A stretch of DNA of 64,000 nt, taken from the NCBI GenBank assembly GCA_029945945.1, contig JAQSDM010000005.1, forward strand, positions 248,001 to 312,000. The letters are read 5' to 3'. The translations under genes and the position numbers were made by a program. This DNA is from Algoriphagus sp. (GTDB lineage Bacteria > Bacteroidota > Bacteroidia > Cytophagales > Cyclobacteriaceae). The notes under the pieces were generated by a model. That model was not told the DNA's origin. It worked only from the letters and a program-made list of their open reading frames with translations, and made no database searches. Position 1 is the first letter of the stretch; each line of letters starts with the position of its first letter. Below are positions 13,454 to 63,662 of this stretch, piece by piece.

Positions 13454-13552
13454 CAGATGAAATCGAGCATGACGAAAACGTCACACACTGGGATGATTAT
13501 GAGTAAGGCGAGATTCTATGTGGCCTTTAAAAATCAAATTATAATCACATGA
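13454..13552 (+). repeat. Leader element copy 1, containing a 31-aa ORF (13457-13552)
   Basis: MKSSMTKTSHTGMIMSKARFYVAFKNQIIIT*; stop overlaps the downstream ATG as ATGA; hairpin TGACG-AAAA-CGTCA at 13470-13483. Confidence 0.9.
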
Positions 13553-14277
13553 AAGTAGTCGGCTTCTTAATCCTTTTAAACCTGTTTCTTCCTTTGGTTG
13601 CAGAGGCACAGCGTGAAGTGACCCAACAAGAATCACTTTGGTGGGGATATTTTTTCACGGCTCCGCTTAACGAAAATTGGTATAATGTCACAGAGGTACA
13701 AGAAAGACATTTTGTTTCTCCTGTTTCCCAAAATCAGTTTTTGATTCGTACCAGATTTCACAGACATATTGGTGAAAAATGGGATGGTTCATTCGGCATT
13801 GTTCTTTTTCTGCACAACAGGCCTGGAAAAGATGATCAGGAGGATTTTACCCAACCGGAAATCAGACCTCATGCCGAGGTGGAGTATAAAACAGTCGTCG
13901 GAAAAATGGGGTTTGAACACCGATTTCGATCCGAGGTTCGATTTTTCAAAGAATTGAATGATTCAAAAACAGACTTGGGTGAAGCTTTTGAGTTGACCAG
14001 TTTTCGGTTTCGGTACCGAATTCAATTTTCTGTTCTTTTGAAAAAGCTGGACGAAAATCGCTCCCTCAAATTGAAGTTTGGGGATGAGCTCATGGTCATG
14101 GCCGGAGGCAAGCTTGGCCCTTTGGTTTTTGATCAAAACCGGATTTACGCTGATCTGAGTTTAGATTTGAATCCTAATCTCGCTCTGGAATTGGGATATG
14201 TAAACTGGTTTCAATCAAATCAATCCGGGGGGTATTTGGAGAGGCATATTATCCGAACCACCTTGCGTCACCAATAA
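13549..14277 (+). CDS. DUF2490 family outer-membrane-like protein
   Basis: Signal peptide; WWGYFFTAPLNENWYNVTEVQERHF...FLIRTRFHR; beta-rich C-terminus. Confidence 0.8.
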   Translation: MKVVGFLILLNLFLPLVAEAQREVTQQESLWWGYFFTAPLNENWYNVTEVQERHFVSPVSQNQFLIRTRFHRHIGEKWDGSFGIVLFLHNRPGKDDQEDFTQPEIRPHAEVEYKTVVGKMGFEHRFRSEVRFFKELNDSKTDLGEAFELTSFRFRYRIQFSVLLKKLDENRSLKLKFGDELMVMAGGKLGPLVFDQNRIYADLSLDLNPNLALELGYVNWFQSNQSGGYLERHIIRTTLRHQ

Positions 14278-16435: not shown

Positions 16436-16945
16436 TGTATTAGTATTTAAGTTTAAAATTAAATTACCCAATTAAAGTACGATAATAATGATAAAAAATC
16501 AAGGTTAAGTGCCATAGAAATATGTGATTTTCATCAGATTATGGGCTGGAATCAGGCGAAATTATTTTTTTTAAAATTGATTCTTAAGATAATGACTTTG
16601 AGAAAAGTAAGATTTGGAAAGGAGGGAATGGGAGGTAATTGGCAACCTGAAAGCCTTTTTTGGGGGGTGTAGTTTTAGGAAAGGAACAGGAGCCTGATTT
16701 TTAAAATGAGCTAAAAGGAATCCCAATTTCCGGAAATTTTGAAAAATATATTTCAAAGGAGATTTAACCAGAGTATATTTTTCTAAGTAGAAATATTAAA
16801 TTGTTAAATCATTGACTTTGAGTAATTAAAGAAAAAAGAATGGGAAAAATTTCCTGTCTCATAGGTGGAGTCCAGAGACCACATTAAAAAAAACGGGGCG
16901 AAGCCGAAAAGCCAGATGAGTAGGCAGTATTTATTTTTACCCATT

Positions 16946-17218
16946 ATGCCAAAATATATTATTGAACGAGAAATACCCAACGCGGGTAGTCTCACCCCTG
17001 AACAACTCAAAGGGATATCACAGACTTCCTGCGGAGTACTGAAGTCTATGGGACCGGAAATCGTATGGGTGCAGAGTTATGTCACCGATGATAAAATCTA
17101 TTGTGTGTACATCGCTCCAAATGAAGAAATGGTCAGAGAGCACGCCATGAAAGGTGGTTTTCCTGCCAATTCCATCCAGAAAGTGGCAACCATCATAGAT
17201 GCAGCAACTGCTGAATAA
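16946..17218 (+). CDS. DUF4242 / SCO4226-type nickel-binding-like protein
   Basis: MPKYIIEREIPNAGSLTPEQL...VQSYVTDDKIYCVYIAPNEEMVREHAMKGGFP. Confidence 0.8.
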   Translation: MPKYIIEREIPNAGSLTPEQLKGISQTSCGVLKSMGPEIVWVQSYVTDDKIYCVYIAPNEEMVREHAMKGGFPANSIQKVATIIDAATAE

Positions 17219-21189: not shown

Positions 21190-21280
21190 ATGAAATCGAA
21201 CATGACGGGTTCGTCACACACTGGAATGATTATAAACCATGCGAGATTCCATCTGACCATAAAAAAACAATTATATACAG
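21190..21280 (+). repeat. Leader element copy 2 (tandem with copy 3)
   Basis: ATGAAATCGAACATGACGGGTTCGTCACACACTGGAATGATTATAAACCATGCGAGATTCCATCTG...; hairpin TGACG-GGTT-CGTCA at 21203-21216. Confidence 0.9.
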
Positions 21281-21371
21281 ATGAAATCGAGAATGACGCA
21301 GACGTCACACAGAGGAATGATTATTAGCCATGCGAGATTCCATCTGGCCTTTTTTATCAAATTATAATCAG
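21281..21371 (+). repeat. Leader element copy 3, with 28-aa ORF 21281-21367
   Basis: MKSRMTQTSHRGMIISHARFHLAFFIKL*; hairpin TGACG-CAGA-CGTCA at 21294-21307; ends at the AtuA ATGAAA. Confidence 0.9.
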
Positions 21372-22694
21372 ATGAAAGAAAAAATCAGAATAGGTTGTGG
21401 CGCAGGTTTTTCGGGTGACCGAATCGAGCCGGCTTTGATCCTGACGGAAAAAGGAAATCTGGACTACCTGGTGCTGGAATGCCTCGCTGAGCGGACCATT
21501 GCTTTGGCACAAAAGCGAAAGCAACAAGATCCGAATACCGGATTTGATGTCTTATTGGAACGAAGGATGGAAGGTCTGCTGCCTTTATTGCTCCACCATA
21601 ATACCCGACTGATTACGAATATGGGTGCGGCAAACCCGCTTGCAGGTGCCCAAAAAATCCTGGAACTGGCAGCCAGAAAAGGCCTGAAAGTCAAAGTGGC
21701 GGTAGTTCTGGGAGATGATGTTTTTGATTCGATTTCCGGAAATGAACTTTCGATGGAAGGAAATAAGCCGCTGCATTCCTATGGGCAACTTGTTTCGGCC
21801 AATGCTTACCTGGGAATAGATGCGATTTTGCCGGCATTGAAAACTGATGCTCACATCATTCTGACAGGAAGAGTGGCGGATCCATCTTTGTTTTTGGCAC
21901 CTATGATCCATGAATTCAAGTGGGACGAGGATGATTTTAAACTGATGGGAAAAGGTACCGTCATCGGTCATTTGCTGGAATGCGCAGGACAAATAACCGG
22001 TGGGTATTTTGCTGATCCCGTGAGTAAACCAATCCCCAACATGCATGAATTGGGTCATCCGTTTGTGGATGTTTTTTGGGACGGTACCGGTATCATTTCT
22101 AAAGTGGATGGAACAGGTGGCGCTATTTCCATTCAAAATTCCAAGGAGCAACTTCTCTATGAAGTCATCGATCCGGGGAATTATTTCACTCCTGACGTGA
22201 TCGCAGATTTTCAAAAGGTCCATTTTGAAGAAATCGGAACAGATCAGATAAAAGTCAGTGGAGGTACCGGTAAAACCCGGCCGGAAACTTTGAAAGTTAG
22301 TGTAGGATTTCAAGCAGGCTTCATAGGGGAAGGAGAAATTTCCTACGCCGGAGCCAATGCTTCAGAGCGGGCAAGACTGGCCGGAGAAATTATTCAGAAG
22401 CGAATCGGACACCTTTATCAGGAGTTTCGGATAGATTACATTGGCATGAGTTCGCTGCACGGAGAGAAACTTTCTTCTCATTCAAATCCCTATGAAATCA
22501 GACTGCGAATCTCCGGAAAAAGTCCGGACAAAACGGTTGCCGGATTGGTAGGAGAGGAAGTGGAGGCGCTTTATACCAATGGGCCGGCAGGAGGCGGAGG
22601 CGCCAGAAAATATGTGCATGAAGTGTTGGGGGTTGTCTCGATTCTGAAGAACAGGTATGAAATCAAATCCGAAATTAGACTCTTCGAATCATGA
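21372..22694 (+). CDS. AtuA-like / DUF1446 family protein, main domain
   Basis: MKEKIRIGCGAGFSGDRIEPALILTEKGNLDYLVLECLAERTIALAQKRK...GRVADPSLFLAPMIHEF; start set after the leader element. Confidence 0.88.
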   Translation: MKEKIRIGCGAGFSGDRIEPALILTEKGNLDYLVLECLAERTIALAQKRKQQDPNTGFDVLLERRMEGLLPLLLHHNTRLITNMGAANPLAGAQKILELAARKGLKVKVAVVLGDDVFDSISGNELSMEGNKPLHSYGQLVSANAYLGIDAILPALKTDAHIILTGRVADPSLFLAPMIHEFKWDEDDFKLMGKGTVIGHLLECAGQITGGYFADPVSKPIPNMHELGHPFVDVFWDGTGIISKVDGTGGAISIQNSKEQLLYEVIDPGNYFTPDVIADFQKVHFEEIGTDQIKVSGGTGKTRPETLKVSVGFQAGFIGEGEISYAGANASERARLAGEIIQKRIGHLYQEFRIDYIGMSSLHGEKLSSHSNPYEIRLRISGKSPDKTVAGLVGEEVEALYTNGPAGGGGARKYVHEVLGVVSILKNRYEIKSEIRLFES

Positions 22695-30365: not shown

Positions 30366-31811
30366 TTACTTCACATTATAGCTTTGCATAAAAGGCTGCC
30401 CGTTGGGGGATACTCCTTCAAGCAACAATCTTCCGCTGAATTCCTCCAGAAATTTTCCGACGAGTTTAGGATCTTTTGCAGGTTCGTTATTGATCTGGGT
30501 GATCACAAATCCGTCTCGTAATCCTAAATCCCGCAAATAGCCCCGCGTCAGACCGGTGATTTTTACTCCATATTGAATGCCAAGTCGATCCTTTTCGATG
30601 GTATTGACCGCTTCCAGTCTTGCTCCCAGAATACCTGAACTGAAATACTCCCGCTTCAGGACTCCTTTTCCGCCTTCGAGATTTTGAAGGGTTAGTTGAG
30701 ATGTTTTCGTTTCGCCATTTCGGACATAAGTTATAGGCAATTGGTCTCCCGGGTAATAATAAGAAAGTGCCTCGTCAAAACTTCCCATTCCGGTAATCTC
30801 TTGGTTTCCAACTTTCAATATCACGTCATTTCGCTGCATTCCGGCTTGCTCCGCTGCGCCTTCCCTAACGACATGTGTCACAATTACGCCGTCCAGGGAT
30901 TTAATTTTCATTTCCTCGGCAAGTTCAGGGGTGATTTCTACAGCATCTATTCCCGGAACCGCTTTTTGCACCTCCCCATATTGGATCAGATCATTGGAAA
31001 CCTTGGTCACAATATCTACAGGAACTGCAAACCCATACCCGGTATAAGAACCCGTACGGGAAAGGATCGCGGTGTTTATTCCGACCAATTGCCCTTTTAT
31101 ATTGACCAAAGCCCCGCCTGAATTCCCCGGATTGATAGGAGCATCGGTTTGGATAAAGCTTTCCAACGGAAAATCTCCACCCAAAATATTGATCTGACGC
31201 TCTTTGGCTGACACGATCCCGGCTGTGACGGTGGAGGTCAGATTGAATGGATTACCAACAGCCAGCACCCATTCACCGATTTTCAGATCCTTGCTGCTTC
31301 CTCGTGTGATAGCAGGCAGATTTACAGCGTCTATTTTCAGCACGGCTATGTCTGTGTTTTTATCGGTGCCAATAAGTTTTGCCTGATAAGTCCTTTTTTT
31401 ATGGATGACCTCGATGGTTTCGGCGCCGTCGATCACGTGGTTATTGGTGATGATATACCCATCATTGGAAAAAATCACACCCGATCCTGTGCTTACTTGT
31501 TGGACAGGTCCGGTTCCGAAAAAGTATTCAAACATGCTGTAGCGACGGGGATCAGTTCCAGAGAAATTTTTGATAAAAACGACAGAGCCGGTACTGGCTT
31601 GAGAAGCTTCCACAAAAGAAACAGGTAAATCCGCGCTTAATCCGGAAAAAGTCGGTTGGAAATCTGAAGTAAAAGTTGTCTTATGGTCGAGCTGGTTCTC
31701 CGAAAACTGATTTGAAGTATTGGGGGAATCCAAAATCAGATTGGTCCAAACTGCGGCTCCGGCCAAACCTGCCACGAAGGCAGTTCCGGTTGTTTTCAAA
31801 AGAGTTTTCAT
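30366..31811 (-). CDS. HtrA/DegP-like trypsin-family serine protease with PDZ domains (copy 1)
   Basis: SGVIFSNDGYIITNNHVIDGA; TDIAVLKID; TDAPINPGNSGGALVN. Confidence 0.93.
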   Translation of the reverse strand: MKTLLKTTGTAFVAGLAGAAVWTNLILDSPNTSNQFSENQLDHKTTFTSDFQPTFSGLSADLPVSFVEASQASTGSVVFIKNFSGTDPRRYSMFEYFFGTGPVQQVSTGSGVIFSNDGYIITNNHVIDGAETIEVIHKKRTYQAKLIGTDKNTDIAVLKIDAVNLPAITRGSSKDLKIGEWVLAVGNPFNLTSTVTAGIVSAKERQINILGGDFPLESFIQTDAPINPGNSGGALVNIKGQLVGINTAILSRTGSYTGYGFAVPVDIVTKVSNDLIQYGEVQKAVPGIDAVEITPELAEEMKIKSLDGVIVTHVVREGAAEQAGMQRNDVILKVGNQEITGMGSFDEALSYYYPGDQLPITYVRNGETKTSQLTLQNLEGGKGVLKREYFSSGILGARLEAVNTIEKDRLGIQYGVKITGLTRGYLRDLGLRDGFVITQINNEPAKDPKLVGKFLEEFSGRLLLEGVSPNGQPFMQSYNVK

Positions 31812-31903
31812 CTGTTTATAATTTGTTTTTTTATGGTCAGATGGAATCTCGCATGGTTGATAATCATTCCAGTTTGTGACGAACCTGTCATGGTCGATTT
31901 CAT
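31808..31903 (-). repeat. Leader element copy 4, 31-aa ORF
   Basis: MKSTMTGSSQTGMIINHARFHLTIKKQIINR*; stop overlaps the HtrA ATG as ATGA. Confidence 0.9.
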
Positions 31904-54782: not shown

Positions 54783-54842
54783 GAGTTCTGATCTCGGATA
54801 TTTCTACTTCGATCTCGAATGACCGAGTTCTGATCTCGGATG
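54783..54842 (+). repeat. ~1.4 units of the 42-bp repeat found as an array at 61180-61473
   Basis: gagttctgatctcggatatttctacttcgatctcgaatgaccgagttctgatctcggatg. Confidence 0.9.
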
Positions 54843-54880
54843 ATCAGGAAAAAAGAGGGAGAATTAATCTGAAATTGAAA

Positions 54881-55015
54881 GAAGTGAGTTTCTCCCCAAC
54901 TTATAGGGTATTCAGATTGCTCTATTATCAAATTCTATCGGATAGTCGAGCGTAGTTGCTCCCGTACAACTGACAAGGCTACGCTCTGGACCACGCCATT
55001 CACACCCATTATGTG
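54881..55015 (+). repeat. Dispersed intergenic repeat, copy D
   Basis: gaagtgagtttctccccaac..agggtattcagattgct..caaattctatcggatagtcGAGCGTAG...CTACGCTC. Confidence 0.8.
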
Positions 55016-55105
55016 GCAAAAAAAACGGTAAGAACACTATCCCCTCCTGCTTATATTCAACATTTGAATTAACTTGGTATACGATAAAATCTTATCTGAA
55101 CGATT

Positions 55106-55597
55106 ATGAAAAATAAACTGATTTATGCCTCCTTATTAGTTGTGATTTCATCAATAATAGCATGTAGTACAAAAACAGAAGAGCCTGTAGTTCCTCCTGT
55201 TATTGATAAAGAACAAATCAAAAAAGAAATACAAGCCAAAGAAAATGAATATGCCGCCTTGTATAATTCAAGGGAATTGAAAAGCATTGGCTACTATGCG
55301 GATGATGCTATTACTTATTCGCAGAACAGAGAACCATTAGTTGGCAAAGAGGCCATCGTAAATTACTTAAAAGCCGGGATTGACTCCATGATGGAGGATT
55401 TGAAAATTTCATTTGAAACAAAGGAAGTTTTCGTATCAAATGATGGGAATCAGGTAGTTGAAATTGGCTATTATAGATTAGTCGACTCCTTGAATACGAA
55501 TTACAATTCAGGGAATTACATGGTCCTGTTTGAAAAGAGAGATGGAAAATACGTCAGCGTGAGGGAAATGAGTACGTCAGATATACCTCTGGAGTAG
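55106..55597 (+). CDS. DUF4440/SnoaL-like (NTF2 fold) lipoprotein
   Basis: ISSIIACSTKTEEP lipobox; IQAKENEYAALYNSRELKSIGYYADDAITYSQNREPLVGKEAIVNYLK. Confidence 0.8.
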   Translation: MKNKLIYASLLVVISSIIACSTKTEEPVVPPVIDKEQIKKEIQAKENEYAALYNSRELKSIGYYADDAITYSQNREPLVGKEAIVNYLKAGIDSMMEDLKISFETKEVFVSNDGNQVVEIGYYRLVDSLNTNYNSGNYMVLFEKRDGKYVSVREMSTSDIPLE

Positions 55598-55617
55598 AAT
55601 GGTAAAGAATATATAAG

Positions 55618-55655
55618 AAGAGGCTACCTGAAACATCAGATAGCCTCTTTATTTT
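55618..55655 (+). terminator. Intrinsic terminator
   Basis: AAGAGGCTAcCTGAaacaTCAGaTAGCCTCTTtattttt. Confidence 0.85.
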
Positions 55656-55704
55656 TCCGAAAGTCTTTAAAAGGTTCCTTAAGGTTTCTCTTCCAGCCCT
55701 TTTA

Positions 55705-56805
55705 TTAATTTCTTCCGCCGCGTCTCATTCCGCCGCCTCTCGATCCGCCACCTCCGCTGAATCCTGCGGATGATCTTGATGTTCCTGCTCCACTGTAGCG
55801 GGAAGCCCCGGCCGAACTCGGCCTGGATTGTGTCGTAGGGCGTGTAGCAGCCGATGATCCACCGGATGGGCGATTAGCAGATGCCCCGGTTGATGGGCGA
55901 GCTGCGGTTCCTGTGGAAGGACGATTTGAAGTTCCTGCTGAAGCACGAGTCGAGGCACCTGTGGAAGGTCGGGTTGAAGCACCTGTGGAGGGTCGGGCTG
56001 ATGCATTATTGGCTCCATTATATCGACCATTCGCCATGTTATTGTTCACGGTATTGGACCTGTTTCGGGAGTTGTTGTAATTATTGTAATTGTTTCGATT
56101 GTTGATGATTACAGTGTTGCCACCATACCCATATCCATGATGATGATAGTAGTTATTGTGACGGTATACTCCGATGGCCATTACTGTAAAAGCTCGAAAA
56201 TAAGGTGGGTAGTAGCCATAATAATAGGGCGGATAATAGGGTACATACGCCGGAGAATAAACATACTGAACCACCGGAGTTGTCTCGACCACTACTACTG
56301 TCGTTGTGGCCGGAGCACTTACGATTACAGTGTCCTTTCCTTTGTAAGCGGGATTGGCAGTGACTGCCGGTTTCACCGTTTCCCTTAGCTCCACGATATA
56401 ATCTTTACCATACAAATCCGGATCGCCGACTATTTCCATTGTGACTTTTTTGTCAGCATCCTTTGATAACAGGATCACTGCCACGTCCTGTTTTTCTTTT
56501 TCACTTACAGGAACCTGAAGTATAAATGTGAAGTCATCGCCATCCTGTTTTGTCTCCACCTTTATGAAGTCGACCTTTCCATCCAAATCCAAATCCAGGT
56601 TATTCACTCCGGTCGATTCCATGTTGAGTGATTTCTCGAATTCTTCTATGGTGGGTGATTTCTGAAAAAGATCCAGAACCGCATAGAGATCGAGGTTATC
56701 ACCAGGCAATCCAAGTAGTGTTGAATCGCTTTCGTTTTGAGCATGGGCAGCCACACCAAGTAAACTCATAGCTATCAAAAGGCATACTGAAATATATGTT
56801 TTCAT
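55705..56805 (-). CDS. Secreted protein with Tyr/Pro-rich and RPSTGAS-repeat low-complexity C-terminus
   Basis: Signal peptide MKTYISVCLLIAMSLLGVAAHAQ; DLDLDGKVDFIKVETKQDGDDFTF; YYPPYYYGYYPPY; (RPSTGAS)n; GGGGSRGGGMRRGGRN. Confidence 0.75.
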   Translation of the reverse strand: MKTYISVCLLIAMSLLGVAAHAQNESDSTLLGLPGDNLDLYAVLDLFQKSPTIEEFEKSLNMESTGVNNLDLDLDGKVDFIKVETKQDGDDFTFILQVPVSEKEKQDVAVILLSKDADKKVTMEIVGDPDLYGKDYIVELRETVKPAVTANPAYKGKDTVIVSAPATTTVVVVETTPVVQYVYSPAYVPYYPPYYYGYYPPYFRAFTVMAIGVYRHNNYYHHHGYGYGGNTVIINNRNNYNNYNNSRNRSNTVNNNMANGRYNGANNASARPSTGASTRPSTGASTRASAGTSNRPSTGTAARPSTGASANRPSGGSSAATRPTTQSRPSSAGASRYSGAGTSRSSAGFSGGGGSRGGGMRRGGRN

Positions 56806-57013
56806 AACAGGATCATTTATAAGAAAGGTAGCAAATAGTTGAGACTCACTCAAGTTCATGGCCTTTTAGTGCGTGTGAGTAGCATGATGCTAAAAATGGG
56901 GAAAAAGCTTGCCAATTGGTCGGATGATTTTCCGAGGGGAGCAAGAGTCACAGAGATACACCGGGAAAAAAACGGAGAGACTATGTTCAGGCCAGCTTTC
57001 CACACTCAGTGGT

Positions 57014-57115
57014 TTTCGATTGCTAGAATAACAAATTCTATTGGATAGTCGGACTTAGTTGCTCCCGTACGGCTGTCGGGACTTCGCTCAGGCTTACATT
57101 CTACGCTCAGTAAGG
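57014..57115 (+). repeat. Dispersed intergenic repeat, copy E
   Basis: gattgctagaataacaaattctattggatagtcggacttagttgctcccgtacggctgtcgggacttcgctcaggcttacattctacgctcag. Confidence 0.85.
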
Positions 57116-57185
57116 GCGCATGTCCCTTCAGGTTATCCTTGCTGGCATGATTGTGGATACCGTCGAACTGTAATATTTCTTACTT

Positions 57186-57371
57186 ATGAACATAAAAAGA
57201 ATTTTCGGAGCCATACTTACAATTTTGGGTATAGTAGGGCTTATTTATACCGCTGTCTCATTTGCCAATGATTCAGCAGACATTAAACAAATGATAGTAT
57301 TTGGATCATTGGGCCTATTATTTTTTATAGCTGGCATTGGCCTGGTCAAAACCACCAAGGATGAGGGTTGA
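57186..57371 (+). CDS. Small two-TM hypothetical protein
   Basis: MNIKRIFGAILTILGIVGLIYTAVSFANDSADIKQMIVFGSLGLLFFIAGIGLVKTTKDEG. Confidence 0.65.
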   Translation: MNIKRIFGAILTILGIVGLIYTAVSFANDSADIKQMIVFGSLGLLFFIAGIGLVKTTKDEG

Positions 57372-57388
57372 AAAGTAAGTGTTAGTAA

Positions 57389-57590
57389 ATAACAAACTAC
57401 GCTCAGGCCGAGATTCAACCCTTAGTGGGGACTACTCTCTGGCAAAAATTCTACTCATCAGTGGGGAAGTGAGTTTCTCCCCAACATAGAGGGTATTCAG
57501 ATTGCTTGAATAACAGATTCTATTGGATAATCGAGCGTAGTTACAAACTACGCTCAGGCCAATATTCTACACCCAGGAGGGGGAAGGAAC
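57389..57590 (+). repeat. Dispersed intergenic repeat, copy F (partial copy plus full copy)
   Basis: acaaactacgctcaggcc at 57389ff; full copy with perfect hairpin GAGCGTAGTT-ACA-AACTACGCTC at 57533-57555. Confidence 0.85.
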
Positions 57591-57643
57591 TAATAAATTT
57601 ATTGGCAGCAAACAAATTGCAACTGAAACTCAGGCAATAAATT

Positions 57644-58027
57644 TTAGCTAACCGCAGTGCTGATTTTCATAAGATTGGCCACTTTTGCAAGCAGTTCATA
57701 GGTGTCAAATGGCTTGGGAATAAAATCGTTGGCACCAGCCTGAAGACAGATTTTTTTTGCATCGGGATGGGCAGACATCATAATAAGTGGTATCGTCTGA
57801 TGCTGGCTGTTACTTTTAATTTTGGCACATACATCTGTACCATTTATACCGGATAAAAGCATGTCCATAAATATCAAATCAATCTTATGCTTACATAGTG
57901 TTTCTTCCACTTCATCTGCTTTTTCCAGCAGTACCACGCTGTAGCCTTTATACATTAGTATCATCTTCATCATCAGCCCAATATCGGAATCGTCGTCTAT
58001 CACTAATATTTTTCCGAAATTTTCCAT
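57644..58027 (-). CDS. Response regulator (receiver domain only)
   Basis: ILVIDDDSDIGLMMKMIL; DLIFMDMLLSGINGTDVCAKIK; IPLIMMSAHPD; GANDFIPKPFD. Confidence 0.92.
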   Translation of the reverse strand: MENFGKILVIDDDSDIGLMMKMILMYKGYSVVLLEKADEVEETLCKHKIDLIFMDMLLSGINGTDVCAKIKSNSQHQTIPLIMMSAHPDAKKICLQAGANDFIPKPFDTYELLAKVANLMKISTAVS

Positions 58028-58028
58028 T

Positions 58029-60530
58029 TTATAAATTGGTTTCAGCTGTATAAGGAAATGCAAAAGTAAATACCGAGCCCTGGCCCTTTTCGCTTTCAAC
58101 GGTAATATAGCCGTTGTGTCTTACAATAATTTCTTTAGCTATAAAAAGCCCTATACCAAAGCCGGCAAAAGTTTGTTCCATCTTTCCTTCGACCCTAAAA
58201 AACCGGTCAAATATTTTTTTGTGATCGGCTTTATCTATGCCAATGCCAAAATCCCGTACACTTACCAACACCATATTTTTTTCGCCTTTACGGATGCTCA
58301 CTTCTACCTTATTATTATTGGCTGAATACTTAATTGCATTGGTAACCAAGTTAATGACCACTTGTTCTATCCTGCCCCTGTCGCCATACATGTTGCAATC
58401 AAATTCGAAGAGCAGGTGAATGGTATGTTTTGGGTTGGTCAGGCTAATGTCATCTACTGTATCTTTTACCAAAGCATTAAGGCTGAATAATTCCTGCTGT
58501 AATTCAAGCTTACCGGCTTCTATTCTGCTAAGATCCAGCATTTCGGTTATAAGCCTGGTAAGCCTTGTTACCTGATGATCTACCCGCAGCAGCGATTTTT
58601 TTATTTGTATCGGAAACGATTCTGCATGCTCTTCGCTCAGAATCATCAGCAGCATTTGCACATAACCTTTAATGGAGGTTACCGGCGTTTTTAATTCGTG
58701 GCTTACCATTTTTATAAAATTATCTTTCCGCTGCTGTTCTTCTTTTCCTCTTTGTATTTCGGTAGAAGTGCCTATCCAGCTTTTGATAATCCCATTGGCT
58801 TCTTTAATAGGTACGGCACGGGTAAGAAACCATTTGTAGCCATCGTTTTTGCTCAGGCACTGCATTTCCATTTCAAAATCTTCGCCGGTGGTAAGGCTCT
58901 GTGTCCAGCGTTTCTGTATTTCAGCCGTTTCATCGGGGTGCATAATATGGCTCCACCCAAATCCTATTAATTCTTCAAAAGTGTAGCCTGTATAATCTAT
59001 CCAGTTCTGGTTAAAAAATGTGGCAAGGCCATCTGCATTGGTGGTGGTAATTTTATCGGGCATCAGGTCGGCCATATGGCTAAAATGCTCTTCGTAATTT
59101 CTTTGTATTTCTAGGTTGGCCAGGGTTAATTGATCAGCTCTCCTTTCTTTTTCATCACTTTCTATTACCAGTTTTTTATTGGCAATAATCAGTTCTGCGG
59201 CCCGGTCTTCCTTTTCTTTATTTTGAAATGCCAGTTCTTTATTTGCAATAATTAATTCTGCTGCTCTTTTTTCTTTCTCGTCGTTTTGAAAGGCTAGTTC
59301 TTTGTTGGCGATTCGTAAATCTTTTGCCCATTTTTGCTCTGTTACATCCCGTGCTGCTGCAAAAACCCCAAGCACATTGCCTTTATCATCTTTGTAAACA
59401 GAAGCATTGTATAACACATCGGTAAGATTACCGTTTTTGTGTTTTATCGTTAGTGGATAATCTGCCACAAAACCTTTTTCAAAAACCTGGAGATAACCTT
59501 CCTGTGCTTTTGTCGGCTCTGTAAAATAATTGGAGAAATCCGTGTCAATCAACTTTTCCCGAGGAACACCCGTAACTTTTATTGAAGCTTCATTCACATC
59601 TGTTATTTTTCCATCGGCGCTGATCGTAACAAGCGGATCTAAACTTGCTTCAATCAAACTTCGGGCGTATTGAGATGCTTGCTTTTGTGATGTAACATCT
59701 CTTGCTGCTGCAAAAACCCCAAGCACATTGCCTTTATCATCTTTATAAACCGAAGCATTGTATAACACATCGGTAAGATTACCGTTTTTATGTTTTATCG
59801 TTAGTGGATAATCTGCCACAAAACCTTTTTCAAAAACCTGGAGATAACCTTCCTGTGCTTTTGTCGGCTCTGTAAAATAATTGGAGAAATCTGTGTCAAT
59901 CAACTTTTCCCGAGGAACACCCGTAACTTTTATTGATGCTTCATTCACATCTGTTATTTTTCCATCGACACTGATCGTAACAAGCGGATCTAAACTTGCT
60001 TCAATCAAACTACGAGCATAATTAGCAATGCTTAACTCTGCTGCACGTTTTTCTTTTTCTTCATTTTGAAAAGCAAGTTCTATGTTAGCAATGCTTAACT
60101 CTGCTGCACGCTTTTCTTTCTCATCATTTTGAAAAGCAAGTTCTATGTTAGCAAGGCTTAACTCTGCTGCTCTCTTTTCTTTCTCATCATTTTGAAAAGC
60201 AAGTTCTATGTTAGCAATGCTTAACTCTGCTGCTCTCTTTTCTTTCTCATCATTTTGAAAAGCAAGTTCTATGTTAGCAATGCTTAACTCTGCTGCACGT
60301 TTTTCTTTCTCCGCGGCACGCTTTTCTTTCTCATCATTTTGAAAAGCAAGTTCTTTATCAGCAATGATTAATTCCTCTGCCCGCTTCCCTTTCTCTTCAT
60401 TCTGAAAGACAAGCTCCTTCCGAACCAAAATTAATTCAGCAGAAAGTTTTTCATTAGCTTCCTTTTGAGTGGCAATTTCTTTGCGGGCAATGGTTAATTC
60501 ATCTTCTTCCAATTCTTTTATTTTAGCCAT
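58029..60530 (-). CDS. PAS-domain sensor histidine kinase with 21-aa coiled-coil repeats and duplicated PAS domain
   Basis: MVSHELKTPVTSIKGYVQMLL (H box); LVTNAIKYSANN; GFGIGLFIAKEIIVRHNG; (IANIELAFQNDEKEKRAAELS)n. Confidence 0.93.
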   Translation of the reverse strand: MAKIKELEEDELTIARKEIATQKEANEKLSAELILVRKELVFQNEEKGKRAEELIIADKELAFQNDEKEKRAAEKEKRAAELSIANIELAFQNDEKEKRAAELSIANIELAFQNDEKEKRAAELSLANIELAFQNDEKEKRAAELSIANIELAFQNEEKEKRAAELSIANYARSLIEASLDPLVTISVDGKITDVNEASIKVTGVPREKLIDTDFSNYFTEPTKAQEGYLQVFEKGFVADYPLTIKHKNGNLTDVLYNASVYKDDKGNVLGVFAAARDVTSQKQASQYARSLIEASLDPLVTISADGKITDVNEASIKVTGVPREKLIDTDFSNYFTEPTKAQEGYLQVFEKGFVADYPLTIKHKNGNLTDVLYNASVYKDDKGNVLGVFAAARDVTEQKWAKDLRIANKELAFQNDEKEKRAAELIIANKELAFQNKEKEDRAAELIIANKKLVIESDEKERRADQLTLANLEIQRNYEEHFSHMADLMPDKITTTNADGLATFFNQNWIDYTGYTFEELIGFGWSHIMHPDETAEIQKRWTQSLTTGEDFEMEMQCLSKNDGYKWFLTRAVPIKEANGIIKSWIGTSTEIQRGKEEQQRKDNFIKMVSHELKTPVTSIKGYVQMLLMILSEEHAESFPIQIKKSLLRVDHQVTRLTRLITEMLDLSRIEAGKLELQQELFSLNALVKDTVDDISLTNPKHTIHLLFEFDCNMYGDRGRIEQVVINLVTNAIKYSANNNKVEVSIRKGEKNMVLVSVRDFGIGIDKADHKKIFDRFFRVEGKMEQTFAGFGIGLFIAKEIIVRHNGYITVESEKGQGSVFTFAFPYTAETNL

Positions 60531-60628
60531 CTTCTGTTTTTATAAATTTCTTTTTTTTAAAAAATTTTATTCAATAATCCATCAAACTATTATCCACAGT
60601 AAGGAAAGCAATCATAAATCACGTTTTG

Positions 60629-60745
60629 CAGCTACAAGAAGTTGGCGATTTCGGAGACGAAAACAGTCTGCCAGCACGAGAAAAACTTGATACGAAGCAC
60701 AAAGCTTCATTTAACCACTGAACCGCCAATTTCTTGAAGGTGCTG
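60629..60745. other. Long imperfect inverted repeat / structured intergenic element
   Basis: CAGC-ta-CAAGAAGTTGGCG (60635-60647) ... CGCCAATTTCTTG (60724-60736)-aaggt-GCTG, enclosing hairpin GAAGC-ACAAA-GCTTC. Confidence 0.6.
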
Positions 60746-60847
60746 TGTGTGCCTTGGATGTTGAATATAGGTTAAAAAGATGGCCGTTCCAATGGATGAA
60801 AGTCTCTTAAGCGTAGGGGTAATCCCGAAATATCAGGACAGGCAGTG

Positions 60848-60899
60848 CAACAGCGGTTTCATGCTTGGCTTTGCAAGCCGGACGAAAACCTAGTTGTTG
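60848..60899. other. Bulged stem-loop intergenic element
   Basis: CAACA-gc-GGTTT-catgctt-GGCTT-tgc-AAGCC-ggacga-AAACC-tagt-TGTTG. Confidence 0.55.
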
Positions 60900-60955
60900 A
60901 CTGTAGTTTTTATGTCAAGGTTAATCCTGCAAACCATTTTGCATATGTTTCCCAA

Positions 60956-61175
60956 ACGCCCCCCTTCGGGGTATGCAAATCATCGTTAGGACTGGGTGTA
61001 ATTTGTAATAACACCCTCTTATCTTTTCCAATTTGTAATTGGTAAACTACCAAAACTTTCAGATTGCTCGAATAACAAATTCTATCGGATAGTCGAGCAG
61101 GACAATGCGATTTAGCATTGGGCCGGGATTGTGGGTAGGAAAACTACGCTCAGGCTGACATTCTACACCTAGCCG
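60956..61175 (+). repeat. Dispersed intergenic repeat, copy G (composite of both repeat types)
   Basis: ccccttcgggg...actgGGTGTAATttgtaataACACC...CCAATttgtaATTGG...aataacaaattctatcggatagtcgagc...aactacgctcaggctgacattctacacc. Confidence 0.85.
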
Positions 61176-61179
61176 AGAT

Positions 61180-61473
61180 GATCTCGAATGACCGAGCTCT
61201 GATCTCGGATGTTTCTACTACGATCTCGGATTACCGAGCTCCGATCTCGGATATTTCTAATTTGATCTCGGATTACCGAGTTCTTATCTCGGATATTTCT
61301 ACTTGGATCTCGAATGACCGAGTTCCGATCTCGGATATTTCTACTTCGTTCTCGAATGACCGAGTTCTGATCTCGGATGTTTCTACTTCGATCTCGAATG
61401 ACCGAGTTCTTATCTCGGATGTTTCTACTTCGATCTTGGATTCCCGAGTTCCGATCTCGGGATTTTCTACTAA
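61180..61473 (+). repeat. Tandem array, 7 units x 42 bp
   Basis: Units GATCTCGAATGACCGAGTTCTGATCTCGGATGTTTCTACTTC at 61180, 61222, 61264, 61306, 61348, 61390, 61432; open in frame on both strands. Confidence 0.97.
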
Positions 61474-61573
61474 AAACCTTAACATGCCGCTTCAGAACTG
61501 GTATTTATAGACTTTAGGTCTGATCAGTGAAATTAGAATTTCTGATTAAGAAAAGTTTGGGTAAATTTTGGTC

Positions 61574-62524
61574 ATGGATAAAAAAATTGATGAACTCGAG
61601 TCTAAGATTTCGTTTTACTTGCCTATTGCTTGGGGATTTGTTGCTGGAGCTATAGTTCCGCTCTTTTATGCTGGATTTGTTGTTTTTGCGCAAAATAAAT
61701 ATTGGCAGGAAGCGGATCTTGGATCTTTTATAGGTGGAGTGTCTGGAACGCTTGCAGCTTTGTCAGGTGTATTCTTTGTTTATGTTGCATTTTTAGGCCA
61801 GCGTATTTCAATCCTTCAACAACAAATTGAACTTCGGGATAATAGGAAAGAACTTCGGGAAACGAGGATGGAAATTCAAGGCCAGAAAGAACAGCTTGAG
61901 CTTCAAAATTTAATATTCAAGCAAACTCAAATTAAAGATACCTTTTTTAGACTATTTGAGTCTTACCGTCAAGTACGCGAAAATGTAACCTATAATAATT
62001 TCATCGAGTGGGATAAGAGAATTTCAAATCTTCCACCAGATATGAAATGGTCAAAATCAAATGGAATTGTGATGGAAAAATGCCTTGGCGAAGAAGCGTT
62101 TAAAAATATTTATTTTAATCTTAAAGATTGGGCTAAAGAAAAATGGAAACCAAAATCTCCTGAAAAATTTGAGGAATTATCGGGATATAAATATGTGACA
62201 AAGCCAGAAGGATTTACTTTTGATTCATGTACAAAAGAAGAAATAAAATTCTTAATTAGAGCCATCATTGACGAGGAATCGATAGGATCATATTTTAGAA
62301 TGATAGATTATGTTCTGAGGTATATTATTGTAGAAGGAATGATAAAAGAATTGGAATTACTTGAAGCCCAAATGGGTAAATCGGAAAGAATTCTGACTTT
62401 CTATTGGCTTTATAGCCAACAAGAAGAAAGTCGAATGGAAATTTTTCAAGAGTACAAGTTTCTTTATTCAGTTTCAGAAAAACATCTCCTATCAAGAAAT
62501 CATAAAAATTTACTTTTACGTTAA
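61574..62524 (+). CDS. Putative phage abortive infection protein (putAbiC-like), membrane-anchored
   Basis: Two TM helices (LPIAWGFVAGAIVPLFYAGFVVF; GTLAALSGVFFVYVAFLGQR), coiled coil, then FKQTQIKDTFFRLFESYRQVRENV. Confidence 0.6.
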   Translation: MDKKIDELESKISFYLPIAWGFVAGAIVPLFYAGFVVFAQNKYWQEADLGSFIGGVSGTLAALSGVFFVYVAFLGQRISILQQQIELRDNRKELRETRMEIQGQKEQLELQNLIFKQTQIKDTFFRLFESYRQVRENVTYNNFIEWDKRISNLPPDMKWSKSNGIVMEKCLGEEAFKNIYFNLKDWAKEKWKPKSPEKFEELSGYKYVTKPEGFTFDSCTKEEIKFLIRAIIDEESIGSYFRMIDYVLRYIIVEGMIKELELLEAQMGKSERILTFYWLYSQQEESRMEIFQEYKFLYSVSEKHLLSRNHKNLLLR

Positions 62525-62565
62525 AGAATCTCTTTAAATTAGATATATTTTGAGATTCCAATTTA

Positions 62566-62630
62566 TTGAATAATCGAGCGTAGTTACAAACTACGCTCAG
62601 GCTGATATTCTACGCCCAGGAGGGGTGAAT
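62566..62630 (+). repeat. Dispersed intergenic repeat, copy H
   Basis: Perfect hairpin GAGCGTAGTT-ACA-AACTACGCTC at 62576-62598, followed by aggctgatattctacgcccaggagggg. Confidence 0.9.
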
Positions 62631-62663
62631 CAATGCTCTCAGAGGAGTGAATTAGTATTCATT

Positions 62664-63437
62664 CTATTTCCCAGGTTCACCATAATATGCCATTAGTTTA
62701 TTTTCCACGATGTTGAGGATAGCGTTTACCTCTAAGATACTTTTCTCATTGTCATTTAGTAGGAGCAAATCATCATTTAACACCTGTTGATTCTTTATGA
62801 GATCAGGCTCTAGCTTAAGTCCAATCCAAACATCATTCTCAATGATTCTTTTAATTGATTTTAGTTCTCCAAATTTATCATGGAACAATGAAATTGGAAC
62901 AAAATTCTCAAGAATAAGAAATAATCCGTAAACCTTTTTTAATTCTTCATCTGACAATTTCCCTCCATGCTCTAATGTTCTATCTGTTAATTTATCAAGG
63001 CTCGCTCGATCAATTAGATGCCTTAGATTATGACTGTACCTCATGATGTTTTCTATATTTATTAAAAGAGAAAAAATGATCCTTGGTTGAACTGAATTTT
63101 TATGTTCTGTGAAGTCTTGATTAATTCTCTTCGTAAACTCCAATAGGCTAATCTGATTTTTCGTTGGATTATTTTTGATACTCATATCGTGATAGTCGAT
63201 TTTCTCAACGATCAAGAAATTATAAATTTCGCCAAGTTGTTTCTTAATGTATAATCTAAAATTCTTTTTTGTTTTTCTTTCTTCATATTTTTTCTCAGCA
63301 AACGGAATAATTACTGCTGCAAAAAGTGACAAGGAAGCAACAATTAAGACGTATGGCTCCCAACTATAATCTTGCGATGAAGGTTGATTTGCCAGTTGAT
63401 TTACTGATTCACTTATTTGGTTAAGGCTATCGTTCAT
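62664..63437 (-). CDS. Hypothetical membrane-anchored protein
   Basis: 257 aa ORF; N-terminal TM EPYVLIVASLSLFAAVIIPFA then a soluble helical domain. Confidence 0.65.
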   Translation of the reverse strand: MNDSLNQISESVNQLANQPSSQDYSWEPYVLIVASLSLFAAVIIPFAEKKYEERKTKKNFRLYIKKQLGEIYNFLIVEKIDYHDMSIKNNPTKNQISLLEFTKRINQDFTEHKNSVQPRIIFSLLINIENIMRYSHNLRHLIDRASLDKLTDRTLEHGGKLSDEELKKVYGLFLILENFVPISLFHDKFGELKSIKRIIENDVWIGLKLEPDLIKNQQVLNDDLLLLNDNEKSILEVNAILNIVENKLMAYYGEPGK

Positions 63438-63477
63438 TTAATAGTGATTGTAATTGTTACTAACTTGTTTATTTATT

Positions 63478-63662
63478 CCCCCCTCGGGGGTAGTCAAATC
63501 ATTGTTGGGACTAGGTGTAATTTGTAATTACACCCTCTTATCTTTTCCAATCTGTAATTGGTAAACTTCCAAAACTTTCAAATTGCTAGAATAACAAATT
63601 CTATTTGATAGTCGAGCGTAGTTACAAATTAAGATCAGGCAAACATTCTACGATCAGCAGGT
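63478..63662 (+). repeat. Dispersed intergenic repeat, copy I (composite, colinear with copy G)
   Basis: ccccctcggggg...gactaGGTGTAATttgtaATTACACCctcttatcttttccaatctgtaattgg...aataacaaattctatttgatagtcgagcgtagttacaaatt. Confidence 0.9.

Follow-up and report, generated by a model that had tools for sequence, protein, structure and literature searches.

A structured DNA element of about 90 nt that carries no gene of its own occurs four times in the window, the 64,000-nucleotide stretch of an Algoriphagus sp. genome analysed here. Judged by comparison of relatives, this element is mobile and has inserted time and again with its end precisely on the start codon of one or another unrelated gene. 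Our best explanation, to which we assign a probability of about 70%, is a non-autonomous mobile element that guides itself, is specialised for start codons and is moved in trans by an enzyme encoded elsewhere. Such an element would insert at ATG|AA(A), strongly preferring real start codons over other sites.

Copies in the window and their distribution

The initial annotation described a sequence of ~96 bp, present four times in the window and lying 5′ of three unrelated genes. All four copies are real, with slightly adjusted coordinates (Table 1), and they end at the start codons of genes for a DUF2490 protein, an AtuA protein and an HtrA-type protease. Copy 2, the upstream member of a pair, begins 2 nt past the stop codon of a CitMHS transporter gene.

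Table 1. Element copies in the window, their parts and their host genes; full units are counted through the terminal ATG.
Feature	Position	Strand	Remark
Copy 1, full unit with terminal ATG	13457-13551	+	
Copy 1, element without host ATG	13457-13548	+	DUF2490 gene ATG at 13549
Copy 1, hairpin P2 (TGACG-AAAA-CGTCA)	13470-13483	+	P2 covariation across copies
Copy 1, internal guide GCGAGATTCTATGTG	13508-13522	+	Covariation across copies
Copy 1, right end CACATG	13546-13551	+	Covaries with guide; includes DUF2490 start codon
Host gene of copy 1, DUF2490 protein	13549-14277	+	
Copy 2, full unit with terminal ATG	21190-21283	+	
Copy 2, upstream member of head-to-tail pair	21190-21280	+	
Copy 2, guide GCGAGATTCCATCTG	21241-21255	+	Right end CAGATG 21278-21283; covariation
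Copy 3, full unit with terminal ATG	21281-21374	+	
Copy 3, downstream member of head-to-tail pair	21281-21371	+	
Copy 3, guide GCGAGATTCCATCTG	21332-21346	+	Right end CAGATG 21369-21374; covariation
Host gene of copy 3, AtuA protein (Pfam PF07287)	21372-22694	+	
Copy 4, full unit with terminal ATG	31903-31809	-	
Copy 4, element without host ATG	31812-31903	-	Protease start codon 31811-31809
Copy 4, guide GCGAGATTCCATCTG	31838-31852	-	Right end CAGATG 31814-31809; covariation
Host gene of copy 4, HtrA-type trypsin/PDZ protease	30366-31811	-	

A 121-nt query returned 48 matches in the same genome (4.84 Mb, 14 contigs; best E = 7e-58), and the 16-nt left end occurs there 73 times when at most 2 mismatches are allowed, vs once for a reversed control, so the four window copies are not due to chance. 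Looking for further copies, as the initial annotation had proposed, thus yielded about 50 in this genome, as well as 86 and 102 model matches in two complete single-contig congeners. Most full-size relatives within the genus have copies, and most genomes of 2.2-2.8 Mb have none. Named genera with matches are Algoriphagus, Cyclobacterium, Anditalea, Lunatibacter and Lunatimonas; more divergent relatives of the element extend to further families of the order, to other parts of the class and to members of the phylum that do not belong to this class. Related elements are thus scattered sporadically over the Bacteroidota. Plasmid and phage collections contained no copies, and the exact motif matched 54 viral contigs, none of which held a true copy once rescored. 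The element is partly self-complementary (e.g., L036 5357-5423), and models give weak antisense matches over true copies; counts therefore have to be made strand by strand. A mixed alignment (A2) in which the reference L291 had wrong coordinates contributes to none of the counts.

The window also holds another structured leader, a DUF805 RNA (Rfam RF03081, 69.9 bits; 16860-16930, + strand), directly 5′ of a small gene whose ATG lies near 16946. The interval 54783-63661 is repeat-dense: units of 63 nt and 42 nt occur in tandem, 300 nt are duplicated (59332/59683, 96%), and palindromes of the type GAGCGTAGTTACAAACTACGCTC, REP-like in appearance, are dispersed through it.

Guide, ends and stems

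The element consensus, ATGAAATCGAGCATGACGnAAnCGTCACACAnnGGGATGATTATnAnCCATGCGAGATTCCATnTGGCCnTTAAAAACAAATTATAAACAnATG, includes an internal guide, 5′-GCnnGATT-C-CATNTG-3′, that is complementary to both ends of the element, ATG-A-AATCnnGC on the left and CAN′ATG on the right. Both guide-end pairings covary strongly. Distinct arm pairs of P1, formed by the left end with the guide, are AATCGAGC/GCGAGATT, AATGCCC/GGGCATT, AATACCC/GGGTATT, AACGAGCA/TGCGAGTT, AACGCCC/GGGCGTT, AATCTCC/GGAGATT and AACATCCC/GGGATGTT. The arms pair better with their own partners than in any of 20000 arm permutations, a test that four misparsed rows (L066, L116, L293 and L475) weaken rather than strengthen. In P3, where guide CATNTG pairs with right end CAN′ATG, the variable base pair is A-U in 27, G-C in 26 and C-G in 16 of 77 copies, and distant copies pair CATCCG with CGGATG. 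The P2 stem (TGACG/CGTCA) covaries as well, for example as TGTCG/CGACA and TGTTG/CAACA. Copy 1 illustrates the arrangement: its guide GCGAGATTCTATGTG, in which the second C is mutated to T, is complementary to its own left end and to its right end at 13546-13551.

The A after the ATG faces C, G or A, and never T, in all correctly parsed copies, and is kept unpaired. For this position we considered a G.T wobble on the opposite strand and dropped it, since distant copies show A.G and A.A. The loop ACACAnnGGnATGATTAT is conserved, and some of its bases might pair with the right end. GC-rich hairpins such as CCCGAA...TTCGGGACAGG recur inside copies (L303, L318, L323, L088 and others) at three fixed positions, close to the left stem, within the ATGATTAT loop and just 5′ of the guide CAT, as if another small repeat nested there or stems had been swapped.

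A different reading, put forward in the initial annotation, was a conserved ~31-aa leader peptide, mobile or not, that is translationally coupled to the host gene. Copies 1 and 4 do encode 31-aa ORFs with an ATGA overlap onto the downstream ATG, as described there; copies with 92 nt between the two ATGs end in ATGA, and many copies retain an ORF of 28-31 aa (28 aa in copy 3). In copy 2, however, the ORF runs to 45 aa, out of frame; in the recently expanded subfamilies of genomes G231 and G116 the ORFs are 6 and 24 aa long, and in type-2 forms and those of distant hosts a stop follows after only 4 codons. Because the ORF is broken in expanded subfamilies and other subtypes, the peptide idea fails. 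The reading frame differs between copies, the peptide has no Pfam match, and sequence changes preserve the pairings and not the frame; a leader peptide is thus highly improbable. The element is structural, not coding.

Insertion at start codons

Synteny with relatives lacking the element, a comparison suggested by the initial annotation, revealed precise empty start codons. The htrA start codon carries no element in any relative examined. The start of pth is occupied in the genome under study; G015, G043 and the pair G017/G024 carry different subtypes at this site, and elsewhere it is empty. The start of an MBL-fold gene is empty in most of 22 relatives; in G022, G020, G015, G231 and G017/G024 it holds different subtypes or arrays. 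Different subtypes are therefore found at the same ATG of both genes in different lineages. Arrays reach four units, with subtypes mixed within an array, and identical units stand at several places in G231.

Tabulation of distances to the ATG and of downstream genes places the copies at start codons rather than at random positions. Among terminal copies, defined as those without another unit directly after them, 177 of 212 (~83%) have a CDS start codon as their exact end. An ORF was taken as a CDS if it had 60 aa or more or continued past the edge of the locus, with gene starts called by a simple script rather than curated annotation. The 177 downstream genes fall into 148 unrelated similarity groups. 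When 40 stretches of 20 kb were sampled without bias from two complete congener genomes, 17 terminal copies lay at CDS starts and 3 elsewhere (manual count), vs 102 ATGAAA sites available at starts and 184 in intergenic DNA (p = 1.7e-5); looser gene calling gave 111:145 for ATGAAA and p = 3.2e-4. Insertions at start codons exceed the prediction from intergenic ATGAAA sites ~7-10-fold, indicating a preference stronger than the ATGAAA target alone gives. Faster loss of intergenic copies could be the source of part of this excess; young copies show it too, with 29:9 (manual count) and 26:5 for start codons vs other sites. The enrichment over equivalent ATGAAA sites and the precise empty sites in relatives bear out the earlier suggestion of insertion at start codons.

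The right flank that begins after the element's ATG is AAA in 210, AAT in 11, AAG in 3 and ACA in 1 of 225 copies, and the insertion target is ATGAA(A). The left end stays ATGAAA even where the host gene begins ATGAAT, which places the breakpoint after ATG or within ATGAA and identifies the left AAA as element sequence. A duplication of the ATGAAA target, as first proposed, is therefore only apparent: the ATG is shared and the left AAA is element-derived. Pairing of the guide with the target spans ATG and AA, and no further. A DDE-type MITE was rejected, since each end is complementary to the internal guide and not to the other end, and since target-site duplication is absent, the left ATGAAA failing to copy the sixth base of the target at ATGAAT genes.

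Occupied genes include pth, ilvC and ilvN, so expression must continue after insertion. At one locus (L430, in G009 around 3.6 Mb), adjacent ilvN-like and ilvC-like genes each have their own copy at the start codon. The right end of the element is A/T-rich, with adenines at -6 and -11 to -13 and C at -3; adenines at -6 and -11 to -13 are reported to be favourable for initiation in Flavobacterium (PMC6847099). This right end may give the host gene a new translation initiation region.

The same position, between native upstream sequence and CDS, would also suit a cis-regulatory RNA leader of a regulon, riboswitch- or attenuator-like, whose guide CAT would switch translation by pairing with one of two partners, the upstream ATG or the host start. 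The covarying structure is compatible with RNA, and predicted start-codon accessibility (mean unpaired probability) is lower with the element than at 46 native ATGAAA starts (0.24 vs 0.45). A regulon is nevertheless unlikely given the 148 similarity groups among the downstream genes, the sporadic occupancy among relatives, with empty orthologues and different subtypes at the same gene, and the existence of tandem arrays. Rfam cis-regulatory leaders of Bacteroidota, the DUF805 RNA for example, resemble the element in being structured and just 5′ of a CDS, and differ from it in that the element matches no Rfam family, precedes unrelated genes and has mobile copies. Rickettsia palindromic elements are small mobile repeats tolerated in genes, where they lie in frame inside ORFs and are translated; the present element, in contrast, lies between 5′ UTR and CDS, and its ORF is not conserved.

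Mobilisation and relation to known systems

For a mobile element specialised on start codons, the arrangement of ends suggests an insertion in which xxxATG-AAAyyy would become xxxATG-[AAATCGAGC...CAN']-ATG-AAAyyy, the host start codon being kept at the right end of the element. Since the guide is complementary to both ends, it is also complementary to the junction CAN′ATG-A-AATCnnGC of a circle or tandem array. Self-pairing of the guide may position both breakpoints and select ATGAAA targets, comparable to the guide sequences of IS200/IS605, with an excised circle as the putative intermediate. Cutting and joining would be the work of an enzyme encoded elsewhere.

Among the loci collected, neither a longer, autonomous copy with the same ends nor a split long copy was found, and no transposase emerged as a preferred downstream gene among the 177. 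The genome under study has two Y1 genes, both flanked by other palindromes; in genomes G015 and G070, which carry copies, no Y1 gene was detected, and Y1 genes are present in several genomes that lack copies. Replication co-direction was seen for 55 of 102 loci vs a gene background of 59% (p = 0.31; a weak bias is possible), an early hint of strand bias with dnaA as origin having disappeared with GC-skew origins. Mobilisation by the Y1 genes of this genome was rejected, as association, co-occurrence and strand bias all fail.

A Y1 (RAYT-like) transposase gene at L099 1741-2530 (C13 of the same genome) lies between palindromes around GTTCCGTAGGAACG, which form a separate REP family of this genome.

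These results also make improbable a classical IS200/IS605- or RAYT-mobilised element (REP or PATE) that moves by single-stranded DNA transposition through a Y1 transposase. Its attraction lies in the fixed target without real duplication, the fixed orientation, the hairpin and the guide-end pairing, all of which recall IS608, in which base pairing of internal guides extends to the cleavage sites and to the target (PMC5934647). The element shares with IS608 ends and PATEs small structured ends, a fixed orientation at a short target and a target common to the element end; its internal guide, which pairs with the ends, may likewise mark cleavage sites. It departs from IS200/IS605 in its lack of Y1 association and strand bias, in its location at start codons, and in its single guide, which pairs with both ends as one continuous antiparallel duplex instead of as two separate tetranucleotide guides. 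Like REPs, it is short, high-copy, hairpin-bearing and dispersed, and it has no dedicated transposase, as is the case for the CGTC-tagged REPs, for which no transposase is known (PMC3733652). It is, however, ~90 nt rather than 20-40 nt long, forms head-to-tail rather than head-to-head arrays, and is inserted at start codons with covarying guide-end pairings.

Mobility at the RNA level, with element RNA entering mRNA at AUG|AA near initiating ribosomes and returning to the chromosome via cDNA, would explain the preference for true start codons over equal DNA sites, and it suits the sense orientation and an internal guide that leaves one base unpaired where the break falls. We give it little weight: no reverse transcriptase or ribozyme motif is linked to the element, and sense orientation follows from the ATGAAA target alone. 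Known self-splicing introns are far longer than 91 nt, and with a length of ~91 nt and no match to any Rfam family, introns included, a group I or group II intron derivative appears unlikely.

The initial annotation knew of no described family for this sequence; Rfam gave no match, and a literature search made largely in papers free of subscription yielded no matching description. To our knowledge, no mobile element specialised on start codons has been described. Beyond the non-autonomous, trans-mobilised element that we favour, one may tentatively envisage a new phylum-wide self-guided class that would recognise the start codon itself, by way of mRNA or the initiating ribosome for instance, and would remake the initiation region of the host gene with every insertion.

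If the guide model holds, the target would be set by a short internal sequence, making the insertion rule directly testable. In each genome of these bacteria, dozens of genes, pth, ilvC and ilvN among them, would then owe their translation initiation region to transposition. This would amount to a natural experiment on how translation starts where Shine-Dalgarno sequences are lacking, and the element bears on the annotation of start codons in Bacteroidota.
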